Virus record (IMG/VR): IMGVR_UViG_3300033146_001486
Coordinates: 1-32,577 of that record
DNA length: 32,577 nt
Reading direction: 5' to 3' (one strand)
Origin: a virus
The notes beneath the pieces were generated by a model that made no database searches, was not told where the DNA came from, and saw only the letters and a program-made list of their open reading frames with translations. Made by a program: the position numbers and the translations under genes. Below, piece by piece: positions 3,857 through 30,373 of this stretch (the first letter of the stretch is position 1; each line of letters starts with the position of its first letter).

Positions 3857-4490
3857 GAGTACAGACATACAGTCAATATCTATGACTTGTAATACTTGTG
3901 GTTCAGATAAAGTAACTATAAAGTTAATGATTGGAGAGAAAGATAAAGCTCTTATAGATAAAGTAGGTAACAAAAATAAACATAGTTCTACACTAGAACA
4001 TCTATATTATAACTTTACTATAAAAGGTATCAGTAGAGCATTACTACAAGAACTAGCTCGACATAGAATAGCTAGTTTAAGTGTTAAGAGTACTAGATAT
4101 ACACTCAAAGAGCTTAAAGAAGAAGAACCGTTTATCTTGTTTTATCCTCGAGAATTAAAGTTTCATAGCACTCCTGAACAAGTAACCAGAGCTAAAAAGT
4201 ATTTAGTTTTTACAGGAGTTGAAATGATTGATATGGCTTCAATAAGTGCTTTAGACTATATATGCAAAGCATTAAAAGAAGGTATCTCAAATGATATAGC
4301 AAAATACTGTCTTCCTGAGAGTTATAAAACAGAATTATCTTGGAGTATAAATGCTAGAAGTTTACAAAACTTTTTATTTCTTAGAACAGATAAAGCAGCT
4401 TTATGGGAGATAAGAGAACTAGCTAATGAAATACATAACAAGTTACCTGAAGAACACAAATATTTATTCACCTCCAATATAAAGAATTGA
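3849..4490 (+). CDS. thyX: Flavin-dependent thymidylate synthase ThyX-1, main part
   Basis: ThyX makes dTMP from dUMP with FAD, NADPH and methylene-tetrahydrofolate. The signature RHRx7S is complete: RHRIASLSVKS at residues 71-81, followed by TRYTLKEL. The upstream block GEKDKALIDKVGNK and HSSTLEHLYYNF and the C-terminal SWSINARSLQNFLFLR are also typical. From memory this version is closest to ThyX of Campylobacterota hosts. The first 25 residues are in another frame (3779-3856), so this part would have to begin at GTG 3849, which has no good ribosome binding site, or be reached by frameshift. Before the conserved core there is an unusual insert with a CxxC pair (CNTC, 14-17). The stop is followed by a hairpin terminator near 4544. 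Family certain; whether an intact enzyme is made is open. Confidence 0.85.
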   Translation: MNESTDIQSISMTCNTCGSDKVTIKLMIGEKDKALIDKVGNKNKHSSTLEHLYYNFTIKGISRALLQELARHRIASLSVKSTRYTLKELKEEEPFILFYPRELKFHSTPEQVTRAKKYLVFTGVEMIDMASISALDYICKALKEGISNDIAKYCLPESYKTELSWSINARSLQNFLFLRTDKAALWEIRELANEIHNKLPEEHKYLFTSNIKN

Positions 4491-5044: not shown

Positions 5045-5723
5045 AAGAAATAAAAATGCAGAAGAAGTAAAAGATTTTGAAGGTGGTAGTAATGACTATC
5101 TAACTAAGTCAGGTATCTATGAAGATGTAACTATAAAAACTCTTATTTATGATGAAGCTGAAAATGGTGGAGCAGTAGTAAATCTATTTGTAGACAATAA
5201 TGGTGTAGAACAAGTCATTTATGGTGATATTAGAGTAAAAAACAAAAAAGGAGTTACTAATAAAATAGGACAATCACTACTAAATGAACTAATGGTTATA
5301 CTAGATGTAGATTTAGGTGAACCTGTAGAAGCAGAACTACCTATAGGTAAAAATAATGCTATGAAAGATGTTACTGTATTTGAAGAGGTAGTAGATGAAG
5401 AAATTACTATAAAGATTACTAATAAGTATAATGTATGGGATGGAAGTATAAAAGAGAAATCTGCTATATCCAAATTTTACAGAAATAGCGATAAAGCTAC
5501 TGCTGCTGAAATCGTACTTGCTGAAACAAAACCTGATGAAGTAGAATTTGGTACTAAGTATGAAAAAGATTTAGAGTATGCAGAAAATACTAAATATGAG
5601 GATAATCTTACAGAGGAAGAAGTAACTGCTTGGATTAAAGCTAAAAGACCTAAAGGTACTGCTGGTGCTAGTAGTAAGCCTACTAACTTTCAAAAACCAA
5701 AAAATAAATTTGGCAGAAAATGA
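5037..5723 (+). CDS. Probable single-stranded DNA-binding protein (N4 gp45 position)
   Basis: A 228-residue protein with a beta-rich N-terminal two thirds, consistent with an OB fold, and a charged, flexible C-terminal end (KPTNFQKPKNKFGRK, from about residue 214). The C-terminus is basic, not the acidic tail of bacterial SSB. The call rests mainly on context: N4-like phages encode their SSB between the replication ATPase/nuclease genes and the virion polymerase, and its length and composition fit. N4 SSB works in replication and also activates the virion polymerase and host polymerase at phage promoters, so this gene would link the early and late blocks. Ribosome binding site AAGGA at 5026-5030. 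No diagnostic motif is available; another DNA-binding protein is possible. Confidence 0.5.
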   Translation: MFKRNKNAEEVKDFEGGSNDYLTKSGIYEDVTIKTLIYDEAENGGAVVNLFVDNNGVEQVIYGDIRVKNKKGVTNKIGQSLLNELMVILDVDLGEPVEAELPIGKNNAMKDVTVFEEVVDEEITIKITNKYNVWDGSIKEKSAISKFYRNSDKATAAEIVLAETKPDEVEFGTKYEKDLEYAENTKYEDNLTEEEVTAWIKAKRPKGTAGASSKPTNFQKPKNKFGRK

Positions 5724-6580
5724 AGTTAGTTAATGATAAAAACCTATATCAAGATGGTATAGGTTATATAGAACAATATGATTTTAGTACAGCTAATAGA
5801 AGCTACGAAGATAGAGTTAAAGCTGTATCTACAGTAGCTAGTATATGCTACGGTAAAGAATGGAAAGGTACAGATACCTTATTTAAAAGATTAGGTACTG
5901 AGTCTAAAGGGTTACCAAGTTCAAGTTATGAATTTGTACCTATTCTACTTAATATAGACCAAATAATACACATAACAAAAACATATGGTGAAGTTCACAA
6001 TACGATTAAATATGGAGAATGGGTAGAAGATGAGGAATACTTACTAACCAATCTTAGAACTTTAATAGCTGATATAGGAAGTAAATCAGACCAATTCTAT
6101 AATACTACAGAAGAAGAAATAAATATCATTAAAAAACACTATAAAGTATTTAAAACTAAAATACCTTTATTTGTAGCTAGACAATATATGAGACATAGAG
6201 TATCTTGGCAAGAACAAAGTAGAAGATATATAAGTGATAAGAAACAACCTTTTGAATTTTACATATCAAAAGATATGTATGATATTAAATCACATGAACA
6301 CCCATATTATAATCCTGCTCATGGTATTAACTTAACAGATAACTACTCTACACAGAATATTTATGATTTATGTGTAGAGCATTACCATAAAGCTTTAGAG
6401 CAGGGAATAAAACCTCAAGAAGCTAGAATAGTTCTGCCTCAATCTATGTATACTACTATGTGGAGTGCTTGGTATCCTAAACAATTAGAGTCATTTATAG
6501 AGCTTAGAACTGAAGCTCATACACAAGAGGAAACTAGAGAACTAGCAATAGCTAAACAACAGTTACTAAAGGATAAATAA
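5720..6580 (+). CDS. thyX: Second ThyX-like thymidylate synthase (divergent)
   Basis: A 286-residue ThyX-family protein, very different from the one at 3849. The signature region is FVARQYMRHRVSWQEQSRRY (151-170). RHR is at 158-160 and the following Ser at 167, so the spacing is RHRx6S, one residue shorter than the family's RHRx7S. The C-terminal half keeps the family features: ARIVLPQSMYTTMW (235-248), LESFIELRTEAHTQEETRELA (about 256-276). The N-terminal 90 residues contain ThyX-like SYEDRVKAVSTVASICYG. It should bind FAD and dUMP and make dTMP, but the altered loop may change substrate or rate. It overlaps the SSB stop (ATGA), and its own stop overlaps the ligase start (TAATG), so the three are co-translated. 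Confidence 0.85.
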   Translation: MKLVNDKNLYQDGIGYIEQYDFSTANRSYEDRVKAVSTVASICYGKEWKGTDTLFKRLGTESKGLPSSSYEFVPILLNIDQIIHITKTYGEVHNTIKYGEWVEDEEYLLTNLRTLIADIGSKSDQFYNTTEEEINIIKKHYKVFKTKIPLFVARQYMRHRVSWQEQSRRYISDKKQPFEFYISKDMYDIKSHEHPYYNPAHGINLTDNYSTQNIYDLCVEHYHKALEQGIKPQEARIVLPQSMYTTMWSAWYPKQLESFIELRTEAHTQEETRELAIAKQQLLKDK

Positions 6581-7644: not shown

Positions 7645-7786
7645 TATAAAATTAATTATATATAGTGTACTAATAATATCTTTTGTTATTACTATTATAT
7701 CAATAGCTTTTATAGCTACTAATATAATAATTTTTATATTAGTTATATATGCTATATATATAGTACTAAAAGAACTTAACCCATAA
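7637..7786 (+). CDS. Tiny membrane protein (49 aa)
   Basis: A 49-codon frame starts inside the end of the ligase gene (ATG 7637) and ends with TAA at 7784-7786. The product is almost entirely hydrophobic from residue 4 to 44 (Ile, Leu, Val, Phe, Ala) with Lys, Glu and Asn at the end, giving one long or two short membrane helices. It overlaps the 3' end of the oppositely oriented giant gene by 11 bases. The lack of any other gene here and the membrane-protein composition support it, but no family is recognised. It could be an early membrane protein such as a superinfection or lysis-timing factor; that is a guess. Confidence 0.5.
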   Translation: MNDIKLIIYSVLIISFVITIISIAFIATNIIIFILVIYAIYIVLKELNP

Positions 7787-10700
7787 AATTTCTAACTAAT
7801 GGACTTTCTACTATTTCTATTAAGTGATCAATAGGACTACCTGAAGTATCAGATATTAAAGGAAAGAATGACTCTTCAGGTCTTTCTATATCTACTAAAG
7901 TATTATCTATAAACATTAGCATATTACCTATTATGAGTGCTGTTAAAGGATTATCACTATATCTTTTATAGAGTACTTTAGCTATTCTTTGTTTAAATTT
8001 AAAAAATGGTGTAATACCTAGTTTATCTAACGAAGTAAGCCAATCACCAGACTTAGTTGAATAATCTATATGTTGTTCTTGTAGGTATCTAACTCTTTCT
8101 TTTTCAAACTCTTTCAATCTTTTAGCTCTATAATTCTTAAATAAAACATTTCTAGTTTTACTATCTACTTTAGGATACCTAACTTTAAAATCTCTCTTTA
8201 TATCCTCTTCTATATACTTAGCATCTAATTGGTCAGTAGCATATCTTGAACCTATATCAGAAGCTATTACTATTCTTTTAAATATTTGATTAGAAGTAGT
8301 ATTTGTTGTCATATATAACTCATCAAATACTTGTTTACCTAATTTAAGTCCTTTACTACTATTGATTTTATCTATTACTTTTTGAACTTTTTTATCTTTA
8401 TACATAGAGTTATCAGACATAGTATCTTCAACAAATGATGAGTTAAAACCTAAGTCTACTAAATATTTTACAGGAGAATTTTCTAATTTTTTCTCTAGTC
8501 TACTTAACTTATTAGTTAATGCAGTTTTTTGAGACAAATTTCTAGTACTATCTATAGCTAATTTTAATTCTACAATATCTTTCTCTATTTGGTTATAACT
8601 ATCTATAGCTATTATACCTTCTAACATATACTTCATAATAGTTATAGGATTTCTACCTTTAAGCATTTCTAGTAATATATTAGATACTATATTACCAAAT
8701 ATAACTTGATACATTTTACCTACTACTTCTATTTTAAATAATGTAGATATTTCAACTAACATTCTTTCTACACCTCTAATAACTTTATTTAATTTAGGTT
8801 TATCAATACCATAATGATTTAGTATATCTATTATAGATTTAACATCTCCTCCAAATGTATACCTAATTAAACTTTTTCTAACCCACATACCACCTTTACC
8901 ACTAGACATATCAGAATTATTAATCCAATATTTTAAATAGTTAGGAAGTATGTTATAATGTTTTCTATACTCTTTATTATTAGAATTTTCTCCTATGTAT
9001 ATAAATTCTTCAGGATGTTTATAGTAATTATCTATAAAATCTTTATTAGCTAAATCTACCCATTCTTTATTATATTTCTTAGCTTTAGTATGCTCTTCTA
9101 TAGCACCTAATGTATGAGCTAAAGTAACACTAGCTCTAGTATCTATATTAAGATGAGAATTAATAAGATATTGAGGTACTTTAACTTTTATATCAGTTAC
9201 ATACCCTTTAGTGTCATAGGAATAAATAAACTTTTCACTTTTATAAGATGTATCAGTATTATCTAAATCTACTATTATTTTTCTCCTTTCTTCTTTGCTA
9301 AGATTATCAAATAAAGAGGTAGAATTTCTATTAAAATAATCAATAATACCTATACTACCTTCTACTCTACTCTGCATTACAGACTCTTCTACTTTATAGT
9401 AAGATAATGTTTTATCTCCTATCTTGATAGACTCTAGTAGTATAAAATTACTAGGTACTTTCTTATCTGACTCTACTATAGGAACTATATAGCTTAAATT
9501 ATCTGTAACAGGACTATACTCACCTTTTATTAGATAAGAGTATCTATCCATAGATAAATGCTTTTTAATGATTTCTTGAGCTGTATAGACCTCTTTAAAC
9601 ATACCTGTTATAACTTCAGAGTTATTATTTAACAATTCACCTATAATATCTATAGAGTGATCTTCTAATCCCTTTAATACCTCTAAAGAAGCTAAAGCAT
9701 CAATTAAATTTTCTATTTCTAATAATTTACTATTAGACACCTCTTTACCACTCTTTCTAGTATATTTGTAAGCTATAGTACCAGCATTTTTAATAATACT
9801 AGTAGAGTTAGGATTATTACTCAATCTATCAATAGCACCTAAAGCTAAATCTTTTATATCATTAAATAAATACTTAATATGTTCATCTTTAAACTTATGA
9901 TTATTCAATAATCTAGTTTTTAATTTACCTATTAACTCATATCTATATTCTATATCAGTAGTAGCTTTATGTATATCTTCAACAGTAATACCTTTTATAT
10001 TGTATAAAGCATATAAATCAGTCTGTAGTATATATTTATATAAATTATTATCAGTTTGATAAGGTATATCGTTTTTACCTAATATAGAGTGCATTACTCT
10101 TTTAACAACTAAATCTCTAGCTCTAGTAATAAAAGACCTAGCTTTAATACCATGTTCTACATAAGGAGTAGACTTATTAGAACTAGGTAATAAATCCAAT
10201 ATTAATGCTGATAAATCATTTTTATCTTCTATATTATCTACACCAGTAGTAGGTATGTGTTCTTTAGCTTCTTTTACTAGATTTATATTATTAATAAGTT
10301 TAGTTATTCTACCTTTAAAAGGTAATTTACCTTGTCTTAGGTGAGAGTCTAATATTTTTACTTTTTCTATAGCATTATACATAGGTCTAAATAATAATTT
10401 CTTCTTAGAGGTATGTATATTATTTATTTCTAATATGATATCTTTAACTGTTTCAGTAGCTACTTTACCTTTTTTACTAAATAACTTATTTAGTATATTA
10501 ACTATAGTATTTATTATTTTAGAAACTACTCCTTTAGTATTAACAGGTTCAAATATATTTACTTCTATTTTACCTATTTCTTTATCTACTCTCTTAGCAA
10601 ATTCTATATTACTCATTAAATAAGTAGTAAACTCGTGTATACCTATATTTTTATCTTCATTATTAAATATATGATTATATTGATGTTTAGCTGTTTGTCC

Positions 10701-13700
10701 TTCACCAAACCAACTACTATCAGCAATTTCACCTACTTTATTATATAAATCTTTAATGATAGATAGTTCTTTTGAAAAACTATTTTTAATTCTAGTTTTA
10801 TGAAATAAAGGTTTTAAAGTAGAGTGTATTAACTCGTGTACGAATACTTCAGCAGAAGATTGATCTATACCATTATAAGCTACTGGATGTTCCATTGTTA
10901 TAATATCAGGACTACCATTAGTAGTAGTACTAATAGCACCTATACTATAACTACTATCCGCAGTATACTCTTTAAATAAAATAGTATCAATAATAGGTTG
11001 TATAATACTATTAACTATATGTGATAGATAAGGCATTTCATTAGGTTTAGAGCTAATATTAGATACTTCATTAAATGTTTCTACTACATTACTACTATTT
11101 ATAGTTTTAAATTTAGTAATACTTTCTTTATCTAAAGTTTCACCTATAGAGAATAAGAGGTCTTCCTCTTCTTCCATTTCATAGTCATTAAAATCTATTT
11201 CATCATCATCTAAAGTATCTTCTTCTTCTACTTCTTTTTTTCCTACATTATTTAATATCTCTTTTTTAATTTCAGCTTTTTCATCTTTCTCAATTTTATC
11301 TATTATTTCTTGTTCTTTCTGTATTTGTTCTAACTTTTCAGTAATAACATCATAAGTATTATTTTCTATAATAGTATGAGCTTGATTATTTTCTTTACTA
11401 GACTTAGTTACTTTAATATAACTATCACTATCACTATGCTCATCTTCTAATATACTAGCTACATTATCTTTTATTACTTTAGTAGATTGTTCCTTAGAAG
11501 TTTTAGCTAAGTCATTTAGTTGAGTTCTAATACTACTACTAGTACCTTCTTTAGCTTCTTTAATAAGAGTATCTTTAGCTTTAGTAGAAGAACTATTACC
11601 TAAATAATATTTAACTACTTCATTCTTTAATACTGCAATACTTAAATCTTTAATACTCTTACCATCCAAACTAGTCTCTAATTTATCATTATAAGCAGTA
11701 TGTATACCTATTAAGTTACCTTCTTTAAACACTAACCTAGAATTAACTCCATATTGACTTATGTTTATCAAAGAATCTAAAAGTTTTTGTTTATTCTCTT
11801 TAACTGTTTTAGACTCCTTTTCTAAAGTTGTTTTTACCTTTTCTAATTTAAGAGAAATACTTCCACTATCTACTTTACCTTTCTTATATCCATAAGTTTT
11901 AAGTATTTTACTAAAACTAGTATCTAGTTGTTGCACAGCTTCATCATTCAAATCTAATGATTTTATTACTGTTAAAGCTCTACTAACTGAATGAATAGCA
12001 TAATCAACTAAATGTTCTTGTTTTAAAGTCTGTTCATAAAACCCAATATTAGCTAGTATTTCCGCTGTTAATCTAACTCTACCTGCACCTACTATAGCAT
12101 CATATATTTGATTAACTTTTACAAATTCTATTATATAAGCTATAGCAGAAAAGTCTCTTAAATGAGTATCAAGAGGAAACATAGCACTACCTTTCTTCTT
12201 TTGCCTATAAGAATTAAACCTACTAGATATAGTATGAGATTTACCTTCTTGGTCTTTAAAAGGTACTACAATTCTATTACCTCCTTCTAATAAAGATAGT
12301 TCTCCTTTACCTTCATCATAAATAGCAGGATCTATTTCTGTCTCACTAATCACTAATTCTTGTATATTTTTATCACCTATTTTAAACGATAATTTTTCAT
12401 TTAACTCTTTAGTTACTTCTCTTTCAAATGCTTTAGTGTTAGAATATTCATTAGTATTTTTTAGTACATCTTTAATAGTTTCTCTAAATATAAATATTAA
12501 ATCATAAGCTTCTAAAGCAGCATCTTTATTATGTTTAAGCTTAGTAAACTTAGCTTTTATAACATCATATAAAGCTGTACCAGCTAATTCCCCTATTAAG
12601 TTAGTAATATTGTCATAAGTAGCTTCTAAATCAATATCACCTTCTTCGTCAAATCTATATTCAGCACTCATCCCAGTTAATGTCGTAAATCTCTTATCCT
12701 CAATATCCAATGTATCTGTAGTCTCATCATTAGCTTTATTCAATAAATCCATTAAGTTCTCTAACCTATCATCTAATTCTTCTTTAGTTTTAGTCTTATC
12801 CATAAACATATTCTGTATATCTTCAACAAGGTCTTTACTTAATGTATAAGATAATCCTTCTTTTTGTTGTTCGTACATATGTCTCATTAAAGGACCTTTA
12901 GCAAAATTTCTTCCTGCACTAGTAACTTCACCAGTATTAGAGTCAATAAAAGAACCTCCATATAGCAATTCTAAGAACCTTAAGAATGTAGGCATACTTT
13001 TACTTGTCTCTGCTATAAAGTCTGCTGTGATTGCTTGATAAGCGTCAAGAATATCTATTCCTGCTTCAACTAATTCTTCTACACTACCAGTACCACTCTC
13101 TAACATACTATCTACTAACTCTTTTTGTTCACCTTCTAGTTTTTTAGATAATTCTTCTAAAGCAGGTCTAGTCATAACACCAACACTTAATAATATACTA
13201 GAAGTCTCACTATTAGATATATCTCCATTTTGGATAGTTGAAAAACCTACTGCTGAATTTTTACCATCCACTTCTGAAGATACATCAGCTACAAAAGTAG
13301 GCTTATTAGTTTCTACTGCTTCTATATAAGAATAAGCAGATATGAGAGAAGATAAAGTATGACTATTAGTCATATCTACTAATTTACCTAAGTTATAAAT
13401 ATCTTTACTAGTAGTAGTACCTTCTGATATAGCTTTTATTAAAGCTTTTAAGTTACTATCTGAAGCTAATTTACTAATAGTACTTTCAAATTTCTCAATA
13501 GAAGTATTAGGAGTAGACTTATCCTCTCCATAGTAATCATCAGTAAACTGAGCTAATCCTGTCATTAAATCTAATTTAAATAAATCTAACTCCTCTTTAT
13601 TTGTTAGATCTATCACTTGTTTAGAATTTTGACTAGTAAGAAGAAATCTTAAAAAAGTATCTGATTGTAGGTTTTCTGTACCATAACTATTAAGGTATAA

Positions 13701-16700
13701 TCTACCATTAGACCCTATCTTACCGTCTGTATGAATATATTTATTAGGATAATTTTTTAATTGTTGTATAGTTTTAATAGTCAATAATTTCTTATTTATT
13801 TTACCAGCATAAGATAACTTAGCTCCAGCAGTTAATATTCTATGACTATTTAAATTCTTTTTATAGGTATTCACTAATTCATTATACTTAAGTCCTTTAG
13901 TATTATATAGTTCATTTATTTTATCTAGGTCTAAACCAATAGAACTTAACCCCATAGGATGTACTAATTTAGGATCAATATTTAATAAATCTAACAACTC
14001 TTTACTGTTTAAACTAGTCAATACTTCTACATCTTTATTTAATACATAATAGGTACTCTTAACAGACTCTAAAGCTCTACTAGCACCTTTACCTACAGGT
14101 TGCCCATTCTTTAATTTAGTTTGAGTCTTAGGTAGTTCATCATCTACAGTATAAAAACCTTTTTCTTCTGTTTTACCTGTAAATAAAGTATCAAAATACT
14201 CTTTATACTTATTCGAATTACTAGCTCTTAAAAACTTAGAAAAAGCATCTTTACCAAATCTAACAAATGGTATTGGTGCATCAATATCTTCTTTTGTAAA
14301 GGTATTAGTTTCTATATAACCTAGTTGGTTTAACCCTGCCACTACTAATAAAGCTAACTCTTGAGATAGAATATTAGATGTTTCTTCCCCACTATCTAAT
14401 GATATTTTTTTAGTTCCATCAATAGTATTCATTTCTATTTCAATAGAGTTTCCTTCTATTTTTATTAGTTTTTCAATACCACTTTTAATTCTATTAACTA
14501 ATTGAGTTCTAGGCATACCTAATCTATGTAACTCTATTTTTTGTGCATTTGTAGCAAAGTCTAATCCTATAGTTTTACCTATATTTTTATTAAACCCTTC
14601 CTCAATATTACCTACTAAACTATTAGTTAATGAAGCTATACTATCAGAAGTTACATAAGTTAAAACACTTAGTAACTCGTCTTTACTTCTATCTTTTAAT
14701 AGTAGAGCTAATGAAGGAGAAGTAGTTAATAGTTTATTTGTATCTAATATATTAAATTTATCACTAGTAAATATTGTTTTTAATCTATTAAACATAGTAT
14801 TATAGAAAGATATAGCAGAGTCTAAATTATCTTCAGAATAAGCTATATCATCTTCAGGCATCAATTCTGTAATATCATCAGTAGATATACCTTGTAAAGC
14901 ATTAGCGTTCATATCAAACACATATTCAATATCTAAATTAATATTAGTAACATTAGATAATATATGAGAAATATTAGATTTCTTATTATCACTAATACTA
15001 GTATTATCTAATTCATCTAATAATTTACTTTTAGCTTTACTAAGCTCTATTTTACTATTAACTCTATCTACTACCTCTTTAAATACTTCTTGATCTATGC
15101 TTTCATACCCTTTTAAAGAATTGGTTAACATAGTGTAATTTTCACTACTTAATTTAAACATTTCTAATAACATATTTTCTAATCGTTTAGTTTCACTATT
15201 TTCTTTTAAGTTTTGAGCTGCACTTCGTATATTAGATAATAGTCTATCTAAATCCATTTTCTTTTGTTTTTCTTTTTTTGCTTCTTCTTCTTTATTAGTA
15301 GAAGTATCTTTATCTTCTTCTTTCTTTTTATTATCAGTTTCCTCTTCAGTAGAAGTATCTTTTTCTTCTTTATTACTAGTTTCTTCTTCTTTATTAGTAG
15401 AAGTATCTTTACTTTTTACTTTTAAATCTTCTTTATTATTTTCACTTATTAAACTAGTAATATAATCAACTACATCTTTTATGTATGCTGTCTCTTCTAC
15501 AGCTATTTTTTTAAGAAAACCTTGATTTATATTCTTATATGCTTCATTTCTACTCTCTAAAAAAGCATTACCTTTAGATACTAATTTTGATAATAATGTA
15601 TTTCTATTTTCTTCATCACTAAATGCCATAGCTTTTAGTACATTATCCATATAATCTTGTAAAGACATATCTTCTGATAAATCATCTCCTACAAATATAT
15701 CGTGAGATACATTATACATAGTCTTATCTTTACCATATCTATTTTCTTCAGTAATGAATGGAGCTTCTAATAGACTATTTTGTATTCTTACAAATTCCTC
15801 TATTTGCTCATTATTCATATTATTAAATGCTTTAGAGGCTTTAATTATAGGTTCTCCAAATGTAGACCCAACTATAGCGTCAGTAAGTCTGTTAGATTTA
15901 AGATATTTATCTTTTACACTACCTAGATATTCAGCTACTGTATTAACTAATTCCTCTTCACCTTTAGTGTTATATCTACTTTTTTTACCTATCAATAACA
16001 TTTTTTGTATAGTATTTAGTATATTACTATTTGTATCATTTTCACCTATATTCTCAACTACATCTTTTAAAGAACTAAATCTTTCAGTATTATTATAAAA
16101 TTCTGCTTTTTCATCAATATCTTTAGTATCTTTTTTAGCTAATTTTTCTATAGTAGAGTTATCATATTTATTATGGTTAAGAGCATTTAAAAAAATACTA
16201 ATATTAGTTTTATCTTCAACATCAGATAAAGACTCTTCTAACATAAATTCTAAACTTTCTTGGTCTAATTCTCCATTATCTATAGCTTTCTTAGTATTAG
16301 ATATAAGGTTACTAAGATGTTTACCTGCATTATTTATTAGACTAATACTACGACTAGTAGCTTCTTTTCTTTTAAAACTGTTACCTTCTTTATTAGTAGC
16401 TAACTTAAATTGATTTATATATGGATGTTTTAAAGTGTCTACCTTAGCTTTTAAGCTATCTAAAGTAGTATCATCTACTCCTAGCCTATCTTTAGCGTTT
16501 TTATCACTTAATATAGCTTCTAATACAGTTATTTTTTCTTCATAGTTATCTATATTACCTGACTCTAAATCTTCTACTTCTTGATTAAATGATTTAAGAT
16601 ACTCATTACTGTCTTTAGGTTTAACAGTATCATATATTTCTTCACTATTTTGATAGTTAGAAGTATCTTTAAAAGATGAGTCTGTACTAAAAGGTTTTTC

Positions 16701-18587
16701 TTCGTCTATTTTTGTTTTTCTTTCTGCTTCAGATAATTCACCAAGTAGAGCTTCACCTCCTAGTACGGTACTATGTGTTAATCCACCTGCTCCAGCACCT
16801 AGTAAAGCTCCTTTAGTAGCTTCATCTAAGAAATATTGACTAAATGGATCATCTCCATACTTCTCTGTACCTAAAGCACTATTAATAGTTTCTCCATAAG
16901 TCTGTATATATTCTTGAGCAGCTTCTACTCCACTTTCTTTAAGTATACTAGCTGTAACTCCTGCTGCTTTTTTAGCTATATCTACTACCTTATTTTCAGG
17001 TAAACTTATAAGTAACTCTTTAATTTTATCAGTATTTATATTTGATTTAAAAGCTAATTTATCAATACCTCCTAATACATAGTTAGAAGCTAACATACCA
17101 GCTATAGTACCTAGACCTACATCATCACCTTCTACACCATTAGCTAGTCTATCATCAATTTGATTATTAGTTTGTTTAGCTGCATAAGCTAATAAACCTC
17201 TATTTTTAGATACTTGAGATAAACTTTTAACACTATTTAATAAACCACTAAATCTAGCTACCTTTTCTGCTTTACTTAATGCTCCTAAACCACCACTATA
17301 GAACATTAATAACATATCAGGTATTGATTGTGCTACAGTATCAGGAGAAGCTTGAATACCTTTAATTAATGCTCCTGCATAGTTACCTTTATCCCACTCT
17401 CTTAAAGCTAATTCTCCTAGTCTATTAGCCTCTTTTCTACCAGTATACCCCCAAGCTTTATCAGCTACTTCAGGATTTTTAGCATTATCTAGTAAAGTAG
17501 AATTACCTGCTACTGTAGCATCTAGTACTGCATCACCAAATCCTGCTATAGTCTGTTGACTACCTGATTGTACTGCATCAATCAGATCTCCAGCTGTACC
17601 AAATACACCTCTAGTCTTAATTCTATCTATCTGTTGTATATTATTAAAAGTAGTATATGCTTCTTTATACTCCTTACTATTTTTACCATATATACTTCCT
17701 AATTTATCTAAATGCTTTAAATCCATTTCCATATTGTCATATCTATTTTGAGATTTAAAACCTAACTCTCTACCTTTTTCAATAGATGACATATTAAGAG
17801 TTCTCAACTTATCAGTAGTTACTGTACCATCTAAGTCAAATAAATCTTTATTATATATTTCTGTATAACCACTACCATACTTCTCTTTATCTCGACCTAA
17901 ATCAAATCTTCTACTCTTTAACATATTAGAGTTACCATGTATCAAAGCTTCTATCTCTTTAGCTTTAGAGTTTCTGATAGCATATAAGTATGTAAGATCT
18001 TTTTCTCTCTTAAAATCCTTAGTTCTACTATAAGGATCAATAGAAGTAGTACCATACTTATAAGATACACTACCATCAGGATTATCTACTCTACCTATAT
18101 AAAGTATATCTTTAGCATCTTCCTCTTCTTCTAGGTTATAAAACATACTTTGTAACTCATTAATATCCAAATCATTTCTAATCTTATTCTTAGTCTTAAC
18201 TCTTTGACCATTCCATACTTCTATATTATTATCTTCTTGAGCTTCTTTCTTCTCTTTAGCAGTTTTAGGAGTATCTTTACCAAATATAAAATCAGTTACT
18301 TCATCATACTTATCATCTAACCAATTAAGACCTCTCTCATAAGGTCCAGTATCTTGATATGTTTTAGGATCTTTATATTGTTTATGGCTAATAGGAGCAT
18401 AAGGATTTTGAGTAAGTAAATCTACTTTATTTTTTCTTTCATATTTAAGTTTATCAAGATAAGCTTTGCTTTCTTCATAATCTTTTTTAGGTTTATCAGG
18501 TATTACTGAATAAGGACTATCTATTTCATACTGATTATTAGTTTTACTTGAGCCATATAATTGGTCTAAAAATTCTATATCATCCAT
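7776..18587 (-). CDS. Giant virion RNA polymerase (N4 vRNAP-like) with GIY-YIG-like and metallopeptidase-like domains
   Basis: A 3603-residue protein, close to the 3500 of N4 gp50, in the same genomic position. Residues 160-245 resemble a GIY-YIG domain (ILYIG, KYGTT, later EIEALIHG). Residues about 330-610 contain Ala/Gly-rich possible membrane segments and the pattern EAAQEYIQ near 555. About 1056-1111 is a Lys/Glu/Thr low-complexity linker. The single-subunit RNA polymerase core follows: SNGRLY with Arg1629 (T/DxxGR motif), Asp1774 in EVDGK (A), Arg1893, Lys1897 and Tyr1905 (B), Asp2163 in YDAIV (C). The spacings (145, 123, 266) are near those I recall for N4. HELIH at 2584-2588 is a zinc-peptidase motif. 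By analogy it is packaged, ejected and transcribes early genes from single-stranded hairpin promoters. Start: ATG 18587 behind AAAGGT. Confidence 0.9.
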   Translation of the reverse strand: MDDIEFLDQLYGSSKTNNQYEIDSPYSVIPDKPKKDYEESKAYLDKLKYERKNKVDLLTQNPYAPISHKQYKDPKTYQDTGPYERGLNWLDDKYDEVTDFIFGKDTPKTAKEKKEAQEDNNIEVWNGQRVKTKNKIRNDLDINELQSMFYNLEEEEDAKDILYIGRVDNPDGSVSYKYGTTSIDPYSRTKDFKREKDLTYLYAIRNSKAKEIEALIHGNSNMLKSRRFDLGRDKEKYGSGYTEIYNKDLFDLDGTVTTDKLRTLNMSSIEKGRELGFKSQNRYDNMEMDLKHLDKLGSIYGKNSKEYKEAYTTFNNIQQIDRIKTRGVFGTAGDLIDAVQSGSQQTIAGFGDAVLDATVAGNSTLLDNAKNPEVADKAWGYTGRKEANRLGELALREWDKGNYAGALIKGIQASPDTVAQSIPDMLLMFYSGGLGALSKAEKVARFSGLLNSVKSLSQVSKNRGLLAYAAKQTNNQIDDRLANGVEGDDVGLGTIAGMLASNYVLGGIDKLAFKSNINTDKIKELLISLPENKVVDIAKKAAGVTASILKESGVEAAQEYIQTYGETINSALGTEKYGDDPFSQYFLDEATKGALLGAGAGGLTHSTVLGGEALLGELSEAERKTKIDEEKPFSTDSSFKDTSNYQNSEEIYDTVKPKDSNEYLKSFNQEVEDLESGNIDNYEEKITVLEAILSDKNAKDRLGVDDTTLDSLKAKVDTLKHPYINQFKLATNKEGNSFKRKEATSRSISLINNAGKHLSNLISNTKKAIDNGELDQESLEFMLEESLSDVEDKTNISIFLNALNHNKYDNSTIEKLAKKDTKDIDEKAEFYNNTERFSSLKDVVENIGENDTNSNILNTIQKMLLIGKKSRYNTKGEEELVNTVAEYLGSVKDKYLKSNRLTDAIVGSTFGEPIIKASKAFNNMNNEQIEEFVRIQNSLLEAPFITEENRYGKDKTMYNVSHDIFVGDDLSEDMSLQDYMDNVLKAMAFSDEENRNTLLSKLVSKGNAFLESRNEAYKNINQGFLKKIAVEETAYIKDVVDYITSLISENNKEDLKVKSKDTSTNKEEETSNKEEKDTSTEEETDNKKKEEDKDTSTNKEEEAKKEKQKKMDLDRLLSNIRSAAQNLKENSETKRLENMLLEMFKLSSENYTMLTNSLKGYESIDQEVFKEVVDRVNSKIELSKAKSKLLDELDNTSISDNKKSNISHILSNVTNINLDIEYVFDMNANALQGISTDDITELMPEDDIAYSEDNLDSAISFYNTMFNRLKTIFTSDKFNILDTNKLLTTSPSLALLLKDRSKDELLSVLTYVTSDSIASLTNSLVGNIEEGFNKNIGKTIGLDFATNAQKIELHRLGMPRTQLVNRIKSGIEKLIKIEGNSIEIEMNTIDGTKKISLDSGEETSNILSQELALLVVAGLNQLGYIETNTFTKEDIDAPIPFVRFGKDAFSKFLRASNSNKYKEYFDTLFTGKTEEKGFYTVDDELPKTQTKLKNGQPVGKGASRALESVKSTYYVLNKDVEVLTSLNSKELLDLLNIDPKLVHPMGLSSIGLDLDKINELYNTKGLKYNELVNTYKKNLNSHRILTAGAKLSYAGKINKKLLTIKTIQQLKNYPNKYIHTDGKIGSNGRLYLNSYGTENLQSDTFLRFLLTSQNSKQVIDLTNKEELDLFKLDLMTGLAQFTDDYYGEDKSTPNTSIEKFESTISKLASDSNLKALIKAISEGTTTSKDIYNLGKLVDMTNSHTLSSLISAYSYIEAVETNKPTFVADVSSEVDGKNSAVGFSTIQNGDISNSETSSILLSVGVMTRPALEELSKKLEGEQKELVDSMLESGTGSVEELVEAGIDILDAYQAITADFIAETSKSMPTFLRFLELLYGGSFIDSNTGEVTSAGRNFAKGPLMRHMYEQQKEGLSYTLSKDLVEDIQNMFMDKTKTKEELDDRLENLMDLLNKANDETTDTLDIEDKRFTTLTGMSAEYRFDEEGDIDLEATYDNITNLIGELAGTALYDVIKAKFTKLKHNKDAALEAYDLIFIFRETIKDVLKNTNEYSNTKAFEREVTKELNEKLSFKIGDKNIQELVISETEIDPAIYDEGKGELSLLEGGNRIVVPFKDQEGKSHTISSRFNSYRQKKKGSAMFPLDTHLRDFSAIAYIIEFVKVNQIYDAIVGAGRVRLTAEILANIGFYEQTLKQEHLVDYAIHSVSRALTVIKSLDLNDEAVQQLDTSFSKILKTYGYKKGKVDSGSISLKLEKVKTTLEKESKTVKENKQKLLDSLINISQYGVNSRLVFKEGNLIGIHTAYNDKLETSLDGKSIKDLSIAVLKNEVVKYYLGNSSSTKAKDTLIKEAKEGTSSSIRTQLNDLAKTSKEQSTKVIKDNVASILEDEHSDSDSYIKVTKSSKENNQAHTIIENNTYDVITEKLEQIQKEQEIIDKIEKDEKAEIKKEILNNVGKKEVEEEDTLDDDEIDFNDYEMEEEEDLLFSIGETLDKESITKFKTINSSNVVETFNEVSNISSKPNEMPYLSHIVNSIIQPIIDTILFKEYTADSSYSIGAISTTTNGSPDIITMEHPVAYNGIDQSSAEVFVHELIHSTLKPLFHKTRIKNSFSKELSIIKDLYNKVGEIADSSWFGEGQTAKHQYNHIFNNEDKNIGIHEFTTYLMSNIEFAKRVDKEIGKIEVNIFEPVNTKGVVSKIINTIVNILNKLFSKKGKVATETVKDIILEINNIHTSKKKLLFRPMYNAIEKVKILDSHLRQGKLPFKGRITKLINNINLVKEAKEHIPTTGVDNIEDKNDLSALILDLLPSSNKSTPYVEHGIKARSFITRARDLVVKRVMHSILGKNDIPYQTDNNLYKYILQTDLYALYNIKGITVEDIHKATTDIEYRYELIGKLKTRLLNNHKFKDEHIKYLFNDIKDLALGAIDRLSNNPNSTSIIKNAGTIAYKYTRKSGKEVSNSKLLEIENLIDALASLEVLKGLEDHSIDIIGELLNNNSEVITGMFKEVYTAQEIIKKHLSMDRYSYLIKGEYSPVTDNLSYIVPIVESDKKVPSNFILLESIKIGDKTLSYYKVEESVMQSRVEGSIGIIDYFNRNSTSLFDNLSKEERRKIIVDLDNTDTSYKSEKFIYSYDTKGYVTDIKVKVPQYLINSHLNIDTRASVTLAHTLGAIEEHTKAKKYNKEWVDLANKDFIDNYYKHPEEFIYIGENSNNKEYRKHYNILPNYLKYWINNSDMSSGKGGMWVRKSLIRYTFGGDVKSIIDILNHYGIDKPKLNKVIRGVERMLVEISTLFKIEVVGKMYQVIFGNIVSNILLEMLKGRNPITIMKYMLEGIIAIDSYNQIEKDIVELKLAIDSTRNLSQKTALTNKLSRLEKKLENSPVKYLVDLGFNSSFVEDTMSDNSMYKDKKVQKVIDKINSSKGLKLGKQVFDELYMTTNTTSNQIFKRIVIASDIGSRYATDQLDAKYIEEDIKRDFKVRYPKVDSKTRNVLFKNYRAKRLKEFEKERVRYLQEQHIDYSTKSGDWLTSLDKLGITPFFKFKQRIAKVLYKRYSDNPLTALIIGNMLMFIDNTLVDIERPEESFFPLISDTSGSPIDHLIEIVESPLVRNFMG
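15257..15423 (-). repeat. Low-complexity Lys/Glu/Thr repeat inside the giant gene
   Basis: This part of the giant gene encodes repeated DTST and NKEEE blocks (DTSTNKEEE occurs twice, DTSTEEE once). At DNA level, a 31-base sequence at 15282-15312 is repeated exactly at 15381-15411. It is probably a flexible charged linker before the polymerase core and a site of slippage or recombination between copies. Confidence 0.75.
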
Positions 18588-18899: not shown

Positions 18900-19364
18900 A
18901 TGGTGTTTACTACCATAGATGAAATTATAACTAAAAGAGTCTTAAATGACATTACAGGTACATTAGAAACTAAAGATTTTAAGCAATTAAAGAAAACTAA
19001 GAAGATACGAGGAGGATTTAGAATGGTTTATTTATTATATGATGAAGCTGTATATCAATGTATAACTTCTAAAAAAGATTTTGAAATAATAATGATAATA
19101 AGAGAAAAATTTACTTATAAACAAATAGAGGTAGAGCTATCTCCAACATATTTAGCAAAAGAATTAAATGTATCTAGGAGAAAAATATCTGATATGTTGA
19201 AAAAAATGCAAAATACTATGATACTATTAAAGGTACATTCAAATAGTTATAGATTTAATCCTTATATGTATTTACCTTTTAGAGCTAATGCTGAAGAATT
19301 ACAAAAAGAATGGAAAAAACTAATAGATAATAAATATATGAGGAGAGACAATCCTCATATATAA
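18900..19364 (+). CDS. RepL-like winged-helix protein
   Basis: A 154-residue protein resembling the plasmid replication initiator RepL and related winged-helix proteins. Visible elements are GGFRMVYL (38-45), a helical region with TSKKDFEIIMIIREK (56-70), a helix-turn-helix PTYLAKELNVSRRKISDMLK (82-101) and a wing with YRFNPYMYLPF (117-127). RepL proteins bind the origin or act as DNA-binding regulators. In this phage it is the only rightward gene inside the leftward late block. It has its own 300-base upstream region with inverted repeats and a bidirectional terminator behind it, so it is an independent unit. It may bind those inverted repeats and regulate the giant gene, or start replication here. 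Family match good at the fold level; function inferred. Confidence 0.65.
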   Translation: MVFTTIDEIITKRVLNDITGTLETKDFKQLKKTKKIRGGFRMVYLLYDEAVYQCITSKKDFEIIMIIREKFTYKQIEVELSPTYLAKELNVSRRKISDMLKKMQNTMILLKVHSNSYRFNPYMYLPFRANAEELQKEWKKLIDNKYMRRDNPHI

Positions 19365-19407: not shown

Positions 19408-20598
19408 CTACTGTCTACTAGCTATATCTTGTAGTAGTTTAAATACTTTACTATTAGCTAATGGATTTACATTTTTCCATTTAGGATCTTTACTTAATTT
19501 TTTTACAAACTCTTTAACCTTTATACTATCCAGTTGTAGTTGTAACTCTTTTTCTTCTGGAGAACCTACAGGTGCTTTAGCTAATTTAGCCTCTATATCA
19601 GCTATAGGTATTTTATGCTTAAGCCTATTTTCATAATTTATTGAAGGATTTTTTATTGTATCCATAACACTAGGATTAGATATATCCTTAGTATTCATTA
19701 ATTTATCATATAGATCTTTAATAGGTTTACTTTCTTTTGTTTTTAAAAAGTTAGTTATATTCTTGGGGTTATCTAAATTCGTATTTGCTAATCTAGCTCT
19801 AGTAGGTTTAGATACTAAAGGGTCTTCTTCAACATCATAGGAAGTATAGTTATTTTTAGGAGATAGACCTTTCTCATATGCTGCCCAAAAAGCTATATCC
19901 TGTATATTGTCATCTTCATATGCTTTTTCTTTACCTGATGCTATTCGTTCTTTAGTATAAGTAACTCCATTTTCTAAATCTTTAGTAGCTAATGCTTCTC
20001 CTAATCTAGTTTGATTATAATTATGTAACTTCTTGTCTGAAGCACTAAGTTTAGGGTTATTTTTATTCTTAGCTAATATATCATTATGGTATCTAATAGT
20101 TTCTTCTAGTTCTTTATTTTTATAATGTTGATTAAATCTTCTATTAGCTAATTCGCTATTATGATCTCTAATAGTTTCTTCTAGTTCTTTATTTTTATAC
20201 TTTTGATTAAATCTTTTATCAGCTAATAAACCATTATGATATCTAGTAGTTTCTTGTAATTGATCATTTTTATAATTTTGATTAAATATTCTATCAGCCA
20301 ATATACTATCTAAGTCTTGTTTTTTAGCTAATCCTTGAACTAATGCAGTAGTATCATAATTACCTATTGGTAGACTACCTATATCTTTTAATTCTCCTGA
20401 ACTAATTTTAGCTAATAGATCATTAGTTATATTACTTCTCTGAGTTTTATAGTTTTCTACATTAGTTTGATTATTTTTATCTAATCTCTCTTGTACTTCA
20501 TCAAACATAGTTTGACCATAACTTTTAAGTAGTCCACTATAAGGATTAACATAACTAGGTTCTCTTAGTGTTTGATCTCCCATTTGAAAATTATCCAT
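19408..20598 (-). CDS. Repeat-containing virion protein (N4 gp51 position)
   Basis: A 396-residue soluble, charged, mostly helical protein. Residues 99-173 are three consecutive 25-residue repeats with the core (R/K)xFNQxYKNxxLxET. The N-terminal part has QMGDQTLREPSYVNPYSGLL. The ATG at 20598 was chosen; a longer reading would need a TTG at 20628 inside the previous gene. It is the second gene upstream of the giant polymerase in the late direction. In N4, gp51 and gp52 in these positions are small proteins ejected with the polymerase, so an ejected or tail-internal role is likely. It ends with TAG, one of only two such stops I found among the genes here. No enzyme motif. Confidence 0.65.
   Translation of the reverse strand: MDNFQMGDQTLREPSYVNPYSGLLKSYGQTMFDEVQERLDKNNQTNVENYKTQRSNITNDLLAKISSGELKDIGSLPIGNYDTTALVQGLAKKQDLDSILADRIFNQNYKNDQLQETTRYHNGLLADKRFNQKYKNKELEETIRDHNSELANRRFNQHYKNKELEETIRYHNDILAKNKNNPKLSASDKKLHNYNQTRLGEALATKDLENGVTYTKERIASGKEKAYEDDNIQDIAFWAAYEKGLSPKNNYTSYDVEEDPLVSKPTRARLANTNLDNPKNITNFLKTKESKPIKDLYDKLMNTKDISNPSVMDTIKNPSINYENRLKHKIPIADIEAKLAKAPVGSPEEKELQLQLDSIKVKEFVKKLSKDPKWKNVNPLANSKVFKLLQDIASRQ
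20080..20304 (-). repeat. Three tandem 75-base coding repeats
   Basis: Three adjacent 75-base units each encode 25 residues with the shared frame FNQ-YKN-L-ET-R-HN. The second and third copies are most alike (YKNKELEETIR in both). The repeat keeps the reading frame, so it probably builds a regular helical rod or coiled coil. Confidence 0.85.
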
Positions 20599-20599
20599 C

Positions 20600-21322
20600 T
20601 TAATACCTACTATATGGATTAGCAGCAACTACTCCAGCAGTAGTAGCATAGTTATTAGCATTACCCATTAATAGTCCTGCTTTTCTCTTCTTCTCATTAA
20701 CTACATTATTATATCTAGTCTTAGCTCTTCTAGCATTCTCTTTAGCTAATTCATAATTTCTAGCATTATTTTCTTTAGTAGCTTTAAGACCTTGGTAAGC
20801 ATTATAACCATTAAATAAGGTACTACCTACACTTAAAGCACTAGGAACTATACCTGTATTTTTAAATCCATTAGCATCTATTCCACCTAACATACCATTC
20901 ATAGAGTTCCAATCATTATTACCAGTAACACTATTAAAATCACTATAATCTATACCATTCCTAGTATTACCACTAATATCTATATTAGAGTATGGGTTAG
21001 TTCTACCATAAGCTGTTTTAGTGATGTTATCAGGAGTTACTGTAACAGCTTCTACTGTATTAGTTGGTGAAATATTATTAGTTACAGTAGGAAGATCTAC
21101 TAAACCATTAGGAGTATCCATTGTTCCATTGTTTCTAGTAGATTTTCCATAAACATCAAATATAGTATCACTAAAAACACTTTCTCCATAAGTATTTTCC
21201 ATACCTTTTAAAGCATTAACTAATTCAGGTATAGAAGTATCATCTTCAGTATAAGCATTAACTACTGCATTATCACCATATTTAATCATTAATTCATTTA
21301 AAGTTTGTTCTAAATTATTCAT
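20600..21322 (-). CDS. Virion protein (N4 gp52 position)
   Basis: A 240-residue protein. The first half is Asn/Thr-rich and polar and looks disordered. The second half has a short hydrophobic stretch near LSVGSTLFNGYNAYQGL (about 163-179), then a basic helix (ENNARNYELAKENARRAKTR region) and an Ala-rich end ANNYATTAGVVAANPYSRY. This organisation, with a small Gly/Ala helix followed by a basic coiled helix, is common in podovirus internal or ejected proteins. Position next to the repeat protein and the polymerase supports that. Start ATG 21322 has AAAGGAAG upstream and overlaps the previous gene by 8 bases. No specific family recognised from sequence alone. Confidence 0.6.
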   Translation of the reverse strand: MNNLEQTLNELMIKYGDNAVVNAYTEDDTSIPELVNALKGMENTYGESVFSDTIFDVYGKSTRNNGTMDTPNGLVDLPTVTNNISPTNTVEAVTVTPDNITKTAYGRTNPYSNIDISGNTRNGIDYSDFNSVTGNNDWNSMNGMLGGIDANGFKNTGIVPSALSVGSTLFNGYNAYQGLKATKENNARNYELAKENARRAKTRYNNVVNEKKRKAGLLMGNANNYATTAGVVAANPYSRY

Positions 21323-25540: not shown

Positions 25541-26791
25541 TTAAAGTTCTGCTACAGAATAGTATACTGCAATTCTCTCACTTCTTTCAATAAGAGTTCC
25601 ATAGTACCATTTTACTGCAAAGAAACCAGTCTCTCCGAATGGATCTAGTGTACCTCTATTATCATCAGGTGCTCTGTAGTAGACTTCCCATCTTTTACCA
25701 AGTTTACCTGTTCTAAGACCTATAGTAGAAAATGACTCACTTCCTACAATAGTTAGAGGATAAACATTATATCTATTATCTGTAGTCTTATATCCTGCAT
25801 TATTAGTTGCTACTGCTCCACTACCTGCAAAATAACCACTATAAGGGTTTACAATTATTCTAAAGTTATCTACTGCTCCTACTTCACCTTCAGCTAAGTT
25901 TCCTGCTGCTGCATAATGTCTTACTGGATGATAAGCTCTCTCACCGTGAGTATCTTTCATTCTAATAAATGTAGGTAGTAGTTCTGAACCTATTACTGCA
26001 TATCTACTAGCATCAACAGTAAGAGTATCTTCGTTTCTATGCCCTTTAATTATCTTAGTAGATATAGGAGTTTGATTATCATCAAGTGTGATCCCTAGTT
26101 TCATAAGACCCTCATAAGTAACTTGTGATATTACTTCACCTATATTACCTGTCATCTCACTCATAGTAAGTGCTTCACCACCATACTTAATAACTCCTGC
26201 ACCATTAATAAGATCACTAGCTAGAGTAAGTTCATATACTTCTGCTGCTGCTTTTATCATTTCTCTTCTAATATGTAATTCCATTTTCATAGTATTACCA
26301 AACATAAAAGACTCTGCTGAATGTTCAATAAAGAAACCATATCTACATATACTACCAGTAACTTTCTGCTTAGTAATACCTACTCTATTAACTCTACCAC
26401 CATGTTCTGTCAGTACTGGCATATAAGTCTTAATACTATTAAAATCTTTACTACCAGCTATCAAATTACCATTTACAATAGTTACACCATTAGCGTCTAT
26501 ACCTTGATCATTTACATTTCGAGGATCATTAATTGGTAGTATTAGTTCTTTACTAATAGCTTTACCATTATGTAGAGGTAAATTAGTTGTAGAACCGAAC
26601 TGACTGAATACCATTCTATAAGCTTCTTCTGTCAATACTTTTCTATCTAAGGCTTCTCTTATAGTCTCTTCACCCATTGAACCATATTTACCATCTCCAT
26701 AGATGATCTCTGAGTCCATAGTTCCTGAATTTAAGTGTTTAGTTAATGCTCCACCTTTATTAGGGTGAAGATTTCCATCAATCTGTGGCAT
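25541..26791 (-). CDS. Major capsid protein
   Basis: A 416-residue protein, near the 400 of N4 gp56. It lies between the scaffold-like gene and a head-associated gene and has its own strong ribosome binding site (AAAGGAT). The sequence has the alternating helix and strand pattern of an HK97-fold capsid protein: a polar N-arm up to about residue 60, then a long E-loop-like stretch, the helical MKMELHIRREMIKAAAEVYEL (about 165-185; spine-helix-like), and a C-terminal domain rich in Gly, Tyr and Val ending AVKWYYGTLIERSERIAVYYS. N4-like capsid proteins have this GTLIERPERIA-type ending as I remember. The following hairpin may enhance its level. Confidence 0.85.
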   Translation of the reverse strand: MPQIDGNLHPNKGGALTKHLNSGTMDSEIIYGDGKYGSMGEETIREALDRKVLTEEAYRMVFSQFGSTTNLPLHNGKAISKELILPINDPRNVNDQGIDANGVTIVNGNLIAGSKDFNSIKTYMPVLTEHGGRVNRVGITKQKVTGSICRYGFFIEHSAESFMFGNTMKMELHIRREMIKAAAEVYELTLASDLINGAGVIKYGGEALTMSEMTGNIGEVISQVTYEGLMKLGITLDDNQTPISTKIIKGHRNEDTLTVDASRYAVIGSELLPTFIRMKDTHGERAYHPVRHYAAAGNLAEGEVGAVDNFRIIVNPYSGYFAGSGAVATNNAGYKTTDNRYNVYPLTIVGSESFSTIGLRTGKLGKRWEVYYRAPDDNRGTLDPFGETGFFAVKWYYGTLIERSERIAVYYSVAEL

Positions 26792-28219: not shown

Positions 28220-30373
28220 TTATTTTTTTAAATCACTAGGCTGTAAAGACTCTTTAGGAGTATCTATTACTGGTATCTTTGTGTCATCTGTTTTATTAGG
28301 AACTTTATGTTTTATTTCATTTTCACCTTTCTCTGTTGATTTAATTAATCCACCCATCATAGCTTGTTCTAAATCTAAGGTATGTTGATGTTCTCTACCT
28401 CTAGCTTCTCTAATTTCATCAGTACCTGCTTTCTTCTGCAAGAAGTCTAAATCTTGTAAATCTTTATTACTCATCAATACTTGAGTTTTAGCTACTTCTG
28501 TATTAGCTTTAGCATCTTTAAGAGTACTATCACTAACATTCTCTTCTGCTTGAGCATACTCATTCTGTATTTGAGCTTTAAGTAATTCTACCTGTAATTG
28601 ATGTATTTCTACTTCCATTTGACTAGGTTGAGGTTCAGGTATATTTTCTATCTGTACTGCTAAATCAGGTCTCTTCTTCAATCTAGCTATATCTGCTAAT
28701 ATAATATGTTTAGTAGTATGATCTACAGTATCTCCTAATGTTTGCATAATAAAGCCTAAATCTCTAGCTTTTTTATCATCTAGTTCAGGAGTAGATACAC
28801 CTACTTTAATATTTATATCTGTCTGTAAAGTATCATTTCTAATAGTTTCATAACTACCATCAGATAACACTATTATCTTATCATCAGTAATAAACTCTTT
28901 ATTTAATTCTGCTAGTTTCTTAAATATACTTACAAATGGTCTATTAAACTTTCTAACACTAGCTGTAAGTCTTTGAGTAGTAGCATCTACTACTGCATTA
29001 ATACCACTAGCTACATCACCATAAGAGTTACTGTTAAGTCCTTCTCCAAACATCTTCTTACCTGAAGTAGACTCCATACTTTTACTAGCTATATCTAACA
29101 TCTGTAAACCACTAACAGGTAATTCAGGGAACTTAGTATGATATATAGCTTTACTAGGATCAAATGAAGGATTAAACCTATAATTTTGACCTGACTGTAG
29201 TTTTGTAAACTCAGCAGGATTTAGAAAACCTTCTACTACACCTACTTGACCACTAGCTACTGAACCTAATATATCTATTAAACCTCTACTTACTGCTCCA
29301 TAAACTAGTTGATCTTCTTCTAAATCTTTAGTATCAGGTACTCCATCATATAGTTCATCATCCATACTAGGAGAATAAGCTCCTCTAGCATAAGGATAGC
29401 CTACTTCTTCACCAAATGGGGATATCTCTTGTCCTATAATAATTCCAGCTACATAAGTAACTACTACAGTCCTAATAGTACCTTTACCATCTATATCTAC
29501 TCTAGTCCAATACTCTGTAACTACTACTGCTTTATTATCGTCTAGTTTAGTCCTTTCTACAGGACTAGTATCATCTTTAATCATATCTTCATATAATGCT
29601 TGAAAATCACTATCAGGTAAACCATCTATATTATAATCTGTAGACTCATCTTCTCTATAGTATACTTTATTTAAATTCTTATACTTACCAGTAGCTCTTA
29701 AACTAGCTATAGTAGAGTAATACTTATCTGCTATAAACTCTAAACTATCAATATCATTACTACCATCATTACTAGGTCCTAATATTATTTGATTATACCT
29801 TTTAAGAGCTATAGTAGGATGATCATTAACTACTTTAGTTATTTCTTTAGGTACTTTTAGTAAACCATTCTCTATCATACCTGTAGCTTCTAATTGTTGT
29901 AATTGAGCAGGATCAATACCTTCAGGTAATTGAACATATTCATAGTCTCTAGTTTTAACTTTTCTCTCTTTATAATTCCAAGAAAGTTTTAAATAGAAAC
30001 TACCATAATCTTCAAAATAAACACTTGCTTTTTCTACTACTGGTGCAAAATTCATCTCTTCGTTTATCTGATAATTTAATAGTAAGTTATGACTATTAGC
30101 TCCTACTCTATCATTACTACCTCTAGGAGATACTTCTACTACATCATAATCACTTAGTAAACCTTCAGATAAAGCAGAATAAGTATAATTATGTAACTTT
30201 TTAATAACTTTAGGTCTTACTTTAGACTTACCTTTATTATTAGTTACTTTATATTTTGCTTCTATAATATTTTTATACTCATCTACTCTATTAACATAAT
30301 CAGTATATAGATCATGTACATCAGAAATATTATTTATTATTTTTTTAACAGTTAAATCTTTTTTCCAACTCAT
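28220..30373 (-). CDS. Portal protein (N4 gp59-like)
   Basis: A 717-residue protein, like the N4-type portal (about 760). Features of podoviral portals are seen: an N-terminal helical clamp with KVRPKVIKKLHNYTYSAL, a beta-rich wing with YYREDEST and VVVTEYWTRVDIDG, the stem region EEDQLVYGAVSRGLIDILGS (about 354-373), GVVEGFLNP, and a long C-terminal helical barrel with LQVELLKAQIQNEYAQAEE (about 605-623). Residues after 670 are polar and charged. It forms the ring through which DNA is packaged and ejected. The start codon directly follows the stop of a tiny lipoprotein gene. The terminase expected nearby is not in this window. Confidence 0.85.
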   Translation of the reverse strand: MSWKKDLTVKKIINNISDVHDLYTDYVNRVDEYKNIIEAKYKVTNNKGKSKVRPKVIKKLHNYTYSALSEGLLSDYDVVEVSPRGSNDRVGANSHNLLLNYQINEEMNFAPVVEKASVYFEDYGSFYLKLSWNYKERKVKTRDYEYVQLPEGIDPAQLQQLEATGMIENGLLKVPKEITKVVNDHPTIALKRYNQIILGPSNDGSNDIDSLEFIADKYYSTIASLRATGKYKNLNKVYYREDESTDYNIDGLPDSDFQALYEDMIKDDTSPVERTKLDDNKAVVVTEYWTRVDIDGKGTIRTVVVTYVAGIIIGQEISPFGEEVGYPYARGAYSPSMDDELYDGVPDTKDLEEDQLVYGAVSRGLIDILGSVASGQVGVVEGFLNPAEFTKLQSGQNYRFNPSFDPSKAIYHTKFPELPVSGLQMLDIASKSMESTSGKKMFGEGLNSNSYGDVASGINAVVDATTQRLTASVRKFNRPFVSIFKKLAELNKEFITDDKIIVLSDGSYETIRNDTLQTDINIKVGVSTPELDDKKARDLGFIMQTLGDTVDHTTKHIILADIARLKKRPDLAVQIENIPEPQPSQMEVEIHQLQVELLKAQIQNEYAQAEENVSDSTLKDAKANTEVAKTQVLMSNKDLQDLDFLQKKAGTDEIREARGREHQHTLDLEQAMMGGLIKSTEKGENEIKHKVPNKTDDTKIPVIDTPKESLQPSDLKK

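Follow-up and report, generated by a model that had tools for sequence, protein, structure and literature searches.

A sequence-divergent N4-type virion RNA polymerase in a low-GC, uncultivated Schitoviridae phage

Virion RNA polymerases (vRNAPs) of the N4 type are ejected together with the phage DNA and transcribe the early genes from extruded single-stranded hairpins (PMC4496689; PMC12633501). Members of this gp50-type family are about 2,800-3,800 residues in length (PMC10654107), and two linkers have been delimited in N4 gp50, at residues 907-1006 and 2102-2123 (PMC12633501). A zincin-like metallopeptidase domain is almost always fused to the N4-type polymerases, as described by Iyer et al. 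(PMC5512222), and this HExxH domain is named C1 in the recent gp50 structure paper (PMC12633501). Metagenomic N4-like viruses, including those represented in IMG/VR, have already been surveyed (PMC10654107).

The window analyzed here is the whole of a 32,577-base virus contig (IMG/VR record IMGVR_UViG_3300033146_001486, positions 1 to 32,577), a fragment of a phage genome with a G+C content of 28%. We are highly confident that its longest feature in Table 1, the open reading frame at 7776-18587, encodes the virion RNA polymerase of a low-GC, uncultivated phage of the Schitoviridae. The 3603-residue product lies within the length range of N4-type vRNAPs and as a whole matches PHROG 2206 (virion RNA polymerase; E=2.9e-82), such that both size and profile place it in the family; a six-frame PHROGs search recovers four collinear stretches spanning profile positions 173 to 3366. 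A preliminary description, made from the sequence alone, had suggested that automatic annotation might miss this gene, which is correct for Pfam and NCBIfam, neither of which has a match in the polymerase region, and for PHROGs when searched with the polymerase region alone, but not for the PHROGs search with the whole protein. Likewise, no relative was retrieved from the PDB by phmmer with the full protein, and scans of viral contigs for this domain with one protein at a time as query (that of the window, L108, L111 or L116) returned either nothing or only the query contig. A family-alignment search of viral contigs succeeded where these scans failed.

Table 1. Positions of the vRNAP gene, its domains and catalytic motifs, and selected late genes in the window.
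Feature	Position	Strand	Basis
Virion RNA polymerase, N4 gp50 homologue, 3603 aa, ATG start	7776..18587	-	PHROG 2206, genome search, alignment
N-terminal domain, residues 1-1030	15498..18587	-	residues 12-628 share 42% identity with the closest relative (L008)
Low-complexity linker, residues about 1031-1130, corresponding to N4 linker 907-1006	15198..15497	-	entropy scan; PMC12633501
Single-subunit RNA polymerase domain core, residues 1616-2282	11742..13742	-	profile 124.3 bits; AF2 model and PDB fold search
Arg1629 (N4 R424) in SNGR	13701..13703	-	alignments
Asp1774 (N4 D559), motif A, EVDGK, catalytic metal ligand by homology	13266..13268	-	alignments
Motif B RNFAKGPLMRHMY, Arg1893/Lys1897/Tyr1905 (N4 R666/K670/Y678)	12873..12911	-	alignments
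Asp2163 (N4 D951), motif C, YDAIV, catalytic metal ligand by homology	12099..12101	-	alignments
Second low-complexity linker, residues about 2411-2490, corresponding to N4 2102-2123	11118..11357	-	entropy scan; PMC12633501
HELIH (HExxH), residues 2584-2588, zincin-like metallopeptidase domain (N4 C1 domain)	10824..10838	-	comparison with vRNAPs; PMC5512222, PMC12633501
C-terminal domain (N4 C2), residues about 2760-3603	7779..10310	-	PHROG 2206 best stretch 3107-3560; tblastn matches in 211 phage records
Two late genes in place of N4 gp51/gp52 ejection protein genes (19408-20628, 20600-21322)	19408..21322	-	order relative to N4
Major capsid protein	25541..26791	-	42% identical to N4 gp56
Portal protein	28220..30373	-	PHROG 1216 E=1.4e-107

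The gene order and the capsid protein are those of the Schitoviridae. Upstream, on the plus strand, lie genes for the C-terminus of a DNA polymerase, a PD-(D/E)XK exonuclease, a Sak4-like protein and a single-stranded DNA binding protein (SSB); beyond the vRNAP gene, on the minus strand, gp53-, gp54- and gp55-like genes, the capsid gene, gp57- and gp58-like genes, the portal gene and lysis genes follow in the N4 order. The vRNAP gene is co-oriented with the adjoining virion genes and opposite to the replication genes, as in N4, and the resemblance to N4 gp50 in size (3603 versus 3500 residues) and in gene position reported in the preliminary description is borne out, the place and orientation being the same. 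The second of the two late genes occupying the gp51/gp52 position (20600-21322) is weakly similar to internal virion proteins. Four of the seven Schitoviridae hallmarks are present (vRNAP, DNA polymerase, major capsid protein and portal), and the other three (TerL, TerS and tail) are not covered by the fragment. The window lacks a primase gene, which is accounted for by the closest relative, where primase precedes the DNA polymerase. When genome contigs were scanned for a host, none emerged, the matches being limited to capsid relatives with 28-44% identity that belong to unrelated bins. An Rfam scan of the window gave no match.

Several other genes in the window deserve mention. A 154-residue helix-turn-helix protein is encoded on the plus strand between the vRNAP and gp51-like genes (18900-19364), where N4 has no gene; its matches, to helix-turn-helix and phage replication protein O-like families, are weak. 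Two ThyX-like (flavin-dependent thymidylate synthase) genes (3849-4490 and 5720-6580) flank the SSB gene, and the product of 2724-2981 contains a Tad2-like (Thoeris anti-defence) domain (Pfam PF11195, E=3.6e-12), a family to which N4 gp49, annotated as DUF2829, presumably also belongs. The segment at 30529-32239 includes two different endolysin-like genes with two small open reading frames between them; one is of the PHROG 181 type and begins like a lipoprotein, and the other is an M15-type peptidase.

The 3603-residue protein has the complete architecture of N4 gp50, since the HExxH domain and both low-complexity linkers, none of which figured in the preliminary description, are found at the N4 places. 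The HExxH at residue 2584 is equivalent in position to that at 2228 of N4 and to that of every vRNAP compared. The order of the parts is thus N-terminal domain, linker, polymerase, linker, HExxH domain and C-terminal domain, as in N4 gp50 (NC_008720; PDB 2po4, 9pnr).

The polymerase had been recognized in the preliminary description from four motifs, which do occur in that order and at the residues given there, each string being unique within the protein (Table 1). The Arg-Lys and Lys-Tyr steps within RNFAKGPLMRHMY are 4 and 8 residues, equal to those of T7 RNA polymerase. Because the region is too divergent for PHROGs, Pfam and NCBIfam, independent profiles were built, first a seed profile from the polymerase domains of seven annotated vRNAPs and then one from 83 N4-type polymerase sequences from IMG/VR, obtained mainly by the family-alignment search and with the window left out. 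The seed profile alone scores 63 bits over window residues 1606-2353, and the 83-sequence profile 124.3 bits over residues 1616-2282 (E=2.5e-40 for one target). The match is confirmed to be more than chance, as neither 200 shuffles of residues 1400-2400 nor the protein read in reverse exceed 3.6 bits.

The catalytic residues align with N4 R424, D559, R666, K670, Y678 and D951, in agreement with the N4-type assignment proposed earlier. Columns occupied by Arg1629, Asp1774, Arg1893 and Lys1897 are identical in all 83 aligned relatives, that of Asp2163 is Asp in 80 of 80 (the remaining three having gaps), and Tyr1905 sits in a Tyr/Phe column. In a separate, untuned MAFFT alignment of the full-length protein, which also included N4 gp50 and six annotated vRNAPs, these residues coincide with N4 R1421, D1556, K1667 and D1948, which correspond to R424, D559, K670 and D951 of the mini-vRNAP. 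The mini-vRNAP numbers used here (R424, D559, R666, K670, Y678, D951) agree with a 997-residue offset and with the alignment.

Structure prediction supports a fold for the polymerase region that is closest to the N4 mini-vRNAP. An AlphaFold2 model of residues 1180-2310, computed with 63 relatives, has a mean pLDDT of 76 and a pTM of 0.78, with values of 85-91 for the ten-residue blocks containing Arg1629, Asp1774, Lys1897 and Asp2163, and it positions Asp2163 between two short strands as is typical of motif C. The ten best PDB fold matches are all N4 mini-vRNAP or gp50 (E from 8.6e-18 to 1.5e-15, TM about 0.55), followed by T7 RNA polymerase and mitochondrial RNA polymerases. The comparison with the mini-vRNAP structure suggested in the preliminary description therefore comes out as anticipated as far as the fold is concerned, although the model is biased by an input alignment made up of vRNAPs, and the test is not fully independent.

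The likeness to N4 gp50 thus extends to catalytic residues and predicted fold, although overall identity is only about 15%. Differences are found immediately next to the catalytic residues. Motif A continues as DGKNSA where N4 has DGVTNGP and most relatives DGVTNG, and the motif B Tyr is followed by Glu1906, a position that is Gly in 82 of the 83 aligned relatives. The N4 promoter-contact residues (K114, R119, W129, K267, K268, K849, K850, D901 and R904) could not be matched to residues of the window protein, but they are not conserved across the vRNAP family either and are thus uninformative as to promoter type. Given Glu1906 and DGKNSA, full polymerase activity is not certain from the sequence, but we do not read Glu1906 as a loss of function since the Gly is also missing from several more distant vRNAPs.

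The closest relative found is IMGVR_UViG_3300028490_000016 (L008, L108, L118), whose capsid protein and Sak4 are each 80% identical to those of the window, with 56% identity for the portal and 42% for the vRNAP N-terminal domain. Its polymerase domain is only about 24% identical, yet all of the catalytic residues are kept. It retains the motif B Tyr-Gly but has DGK-SA after the motif A Asp in common with the window, and this, together with the variability of the Gly position in vRNAPs, weakens the objection to activity. In a small set of other pairs, 80% capsid identity goes with 36-43% vRNAP identity and capsid identities near 75% with 24-34%, which suggests that about 24% polymerase identity at 80% capsid identity is low for the family but consistent with it, and that the vRNAP probably diverges much faster than the capsid protein.

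Three other interpretations were weighed. It appears improbable that the low-GC lineage combines the altered surroundings of motifs A and B (DGKNSA, Tyr-Glu), and hence a changed handling of nucleotide or promoter, with an extra GIY-YIG-type nuclease-like module in the injected N-terminal domain. A pattern of this kind (YIG, YKYG, R, E, TEIY) can be made out by eye at residues of about 158-262 (window 17763-18170, minus strand) and is largely conserved in the closest relative, but searches of the segment for GIY-YIG (T5orf172/MUG113) by Pfam scans, single-family searches, phage tblastn and PDB phmmer gave no match, its AlphaFold2 model is poor (pLDDT 42), and a module of this type, not supported by these tests, is at most a candidate. 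It is less likely still that the protein, though homologous to vRNAPs, has lost or altered its polymerase activity and is retained mainly for ejection: Glu1906 does replace a nearly invariant Gly, the residues after Asp1774 are altered, and conservation relative to the nearest phage is lowest in the polymerase domain, but every residue known to be needed for catalysis persists despite this divergence, in the relative too, and low conservation of the vRNAP relative to the capsid is the family norm. An enzyme of the T7 type, the N4 RNAPII type or another polymerase A fold can be dismissed as extremely improbable, for in spite of the T7-like motif spacing and the presence of T7 RNA polymerase in the second group of structural matches, the N4 mini-vRNAP is the best match both by fold and by sequence (alignment profile against the PDB, E=4e-74, as opposed to about 0.8 for T7), and the protein has the size, the HExxH and C-terminal domains and the synteny that distinguish vRNAPs. 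T7 RNA polymerase shares the single-subunit right-hand fold, the motif A, B and C residues and the 4- and 8-residue spacing, but it is an 883-residue enzyme of double-stranded promoters, without N4-type flanking domains and with weak sequence similarity to the window protein.

The window protein is thus a clear, if sequence-divergent, member of a known and structurally solved family. Building on the family membership, fold and catalytic residues shown here, we infer packaging, ejection, promoter type and activity from N4 gp50. A few copies would be packed in the head and ejected through the tail together with the genome, and the central T7-like domain would transcribe the early genes, whose region lies outside the 32,577-base fragment, from single-stranded hairpin promoters. 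In a two-metal catalysis Asp1774 and Asp2163 would bind Mg, Lys1897 and Arg1893 would contact the nucleotide, and Tyr1905 would sense the ribose; the N-terminal, HExxH and C-terminal domains, joined by flexible linkers, may serve in ejection and regulation. With this gene the N4-type virion polymerases gain a very divergent branch of low GC content, without any concept being changed, and the persistence of catalytic residues and domain plan at about 15% identity makes it a useful diversity point for the polymerase family.

Of more use to the specialist may be, mainly, the relatives with a split vRNAP, and also an interrupted DNA polymerase gene. Two IMG/VR relatives have two adjacent clean open reading frames at the vRNAP place on the minus strand (L109:8563-19124 and L110:9476-19972), with products of 1113 and 2402 residues and of 1156 and 2340 residues, the division falling close to where the N-terminal and polymerase domains of N4 meet. 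The larger frame contains TGR or TTR, DATGSG or DASSSG, RDxxKxxxxxxxY and HExxH, and the capsid proteins are 48-49% identical to that of the window. A split vRNAP in two known N4-like phages has been explained by gene calling or by read-through (PMC10654107).

The family A DNA polymerase of the closest relative also seems to be split (L108:265-6208), into a 225-residue exonuclease-like frame and an intact 604-residue polymerase frame, and the primase gene, which in N4 lies between exonuclease and Sak4, is upstream of it. The DNA polymerase gene of the window has an interruption immediately ahead of motif B: resemblance to the 604-residue protein starts only at VGLSYGAYPQ, and the frame upstream contains a stop. 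A hairpin (TATATAGA, GTAGCG, TCTATATA) precedes this point, and positions 1-60 resemble the 3' end of an insertion, such as an intron, that is truncated by the contig end.
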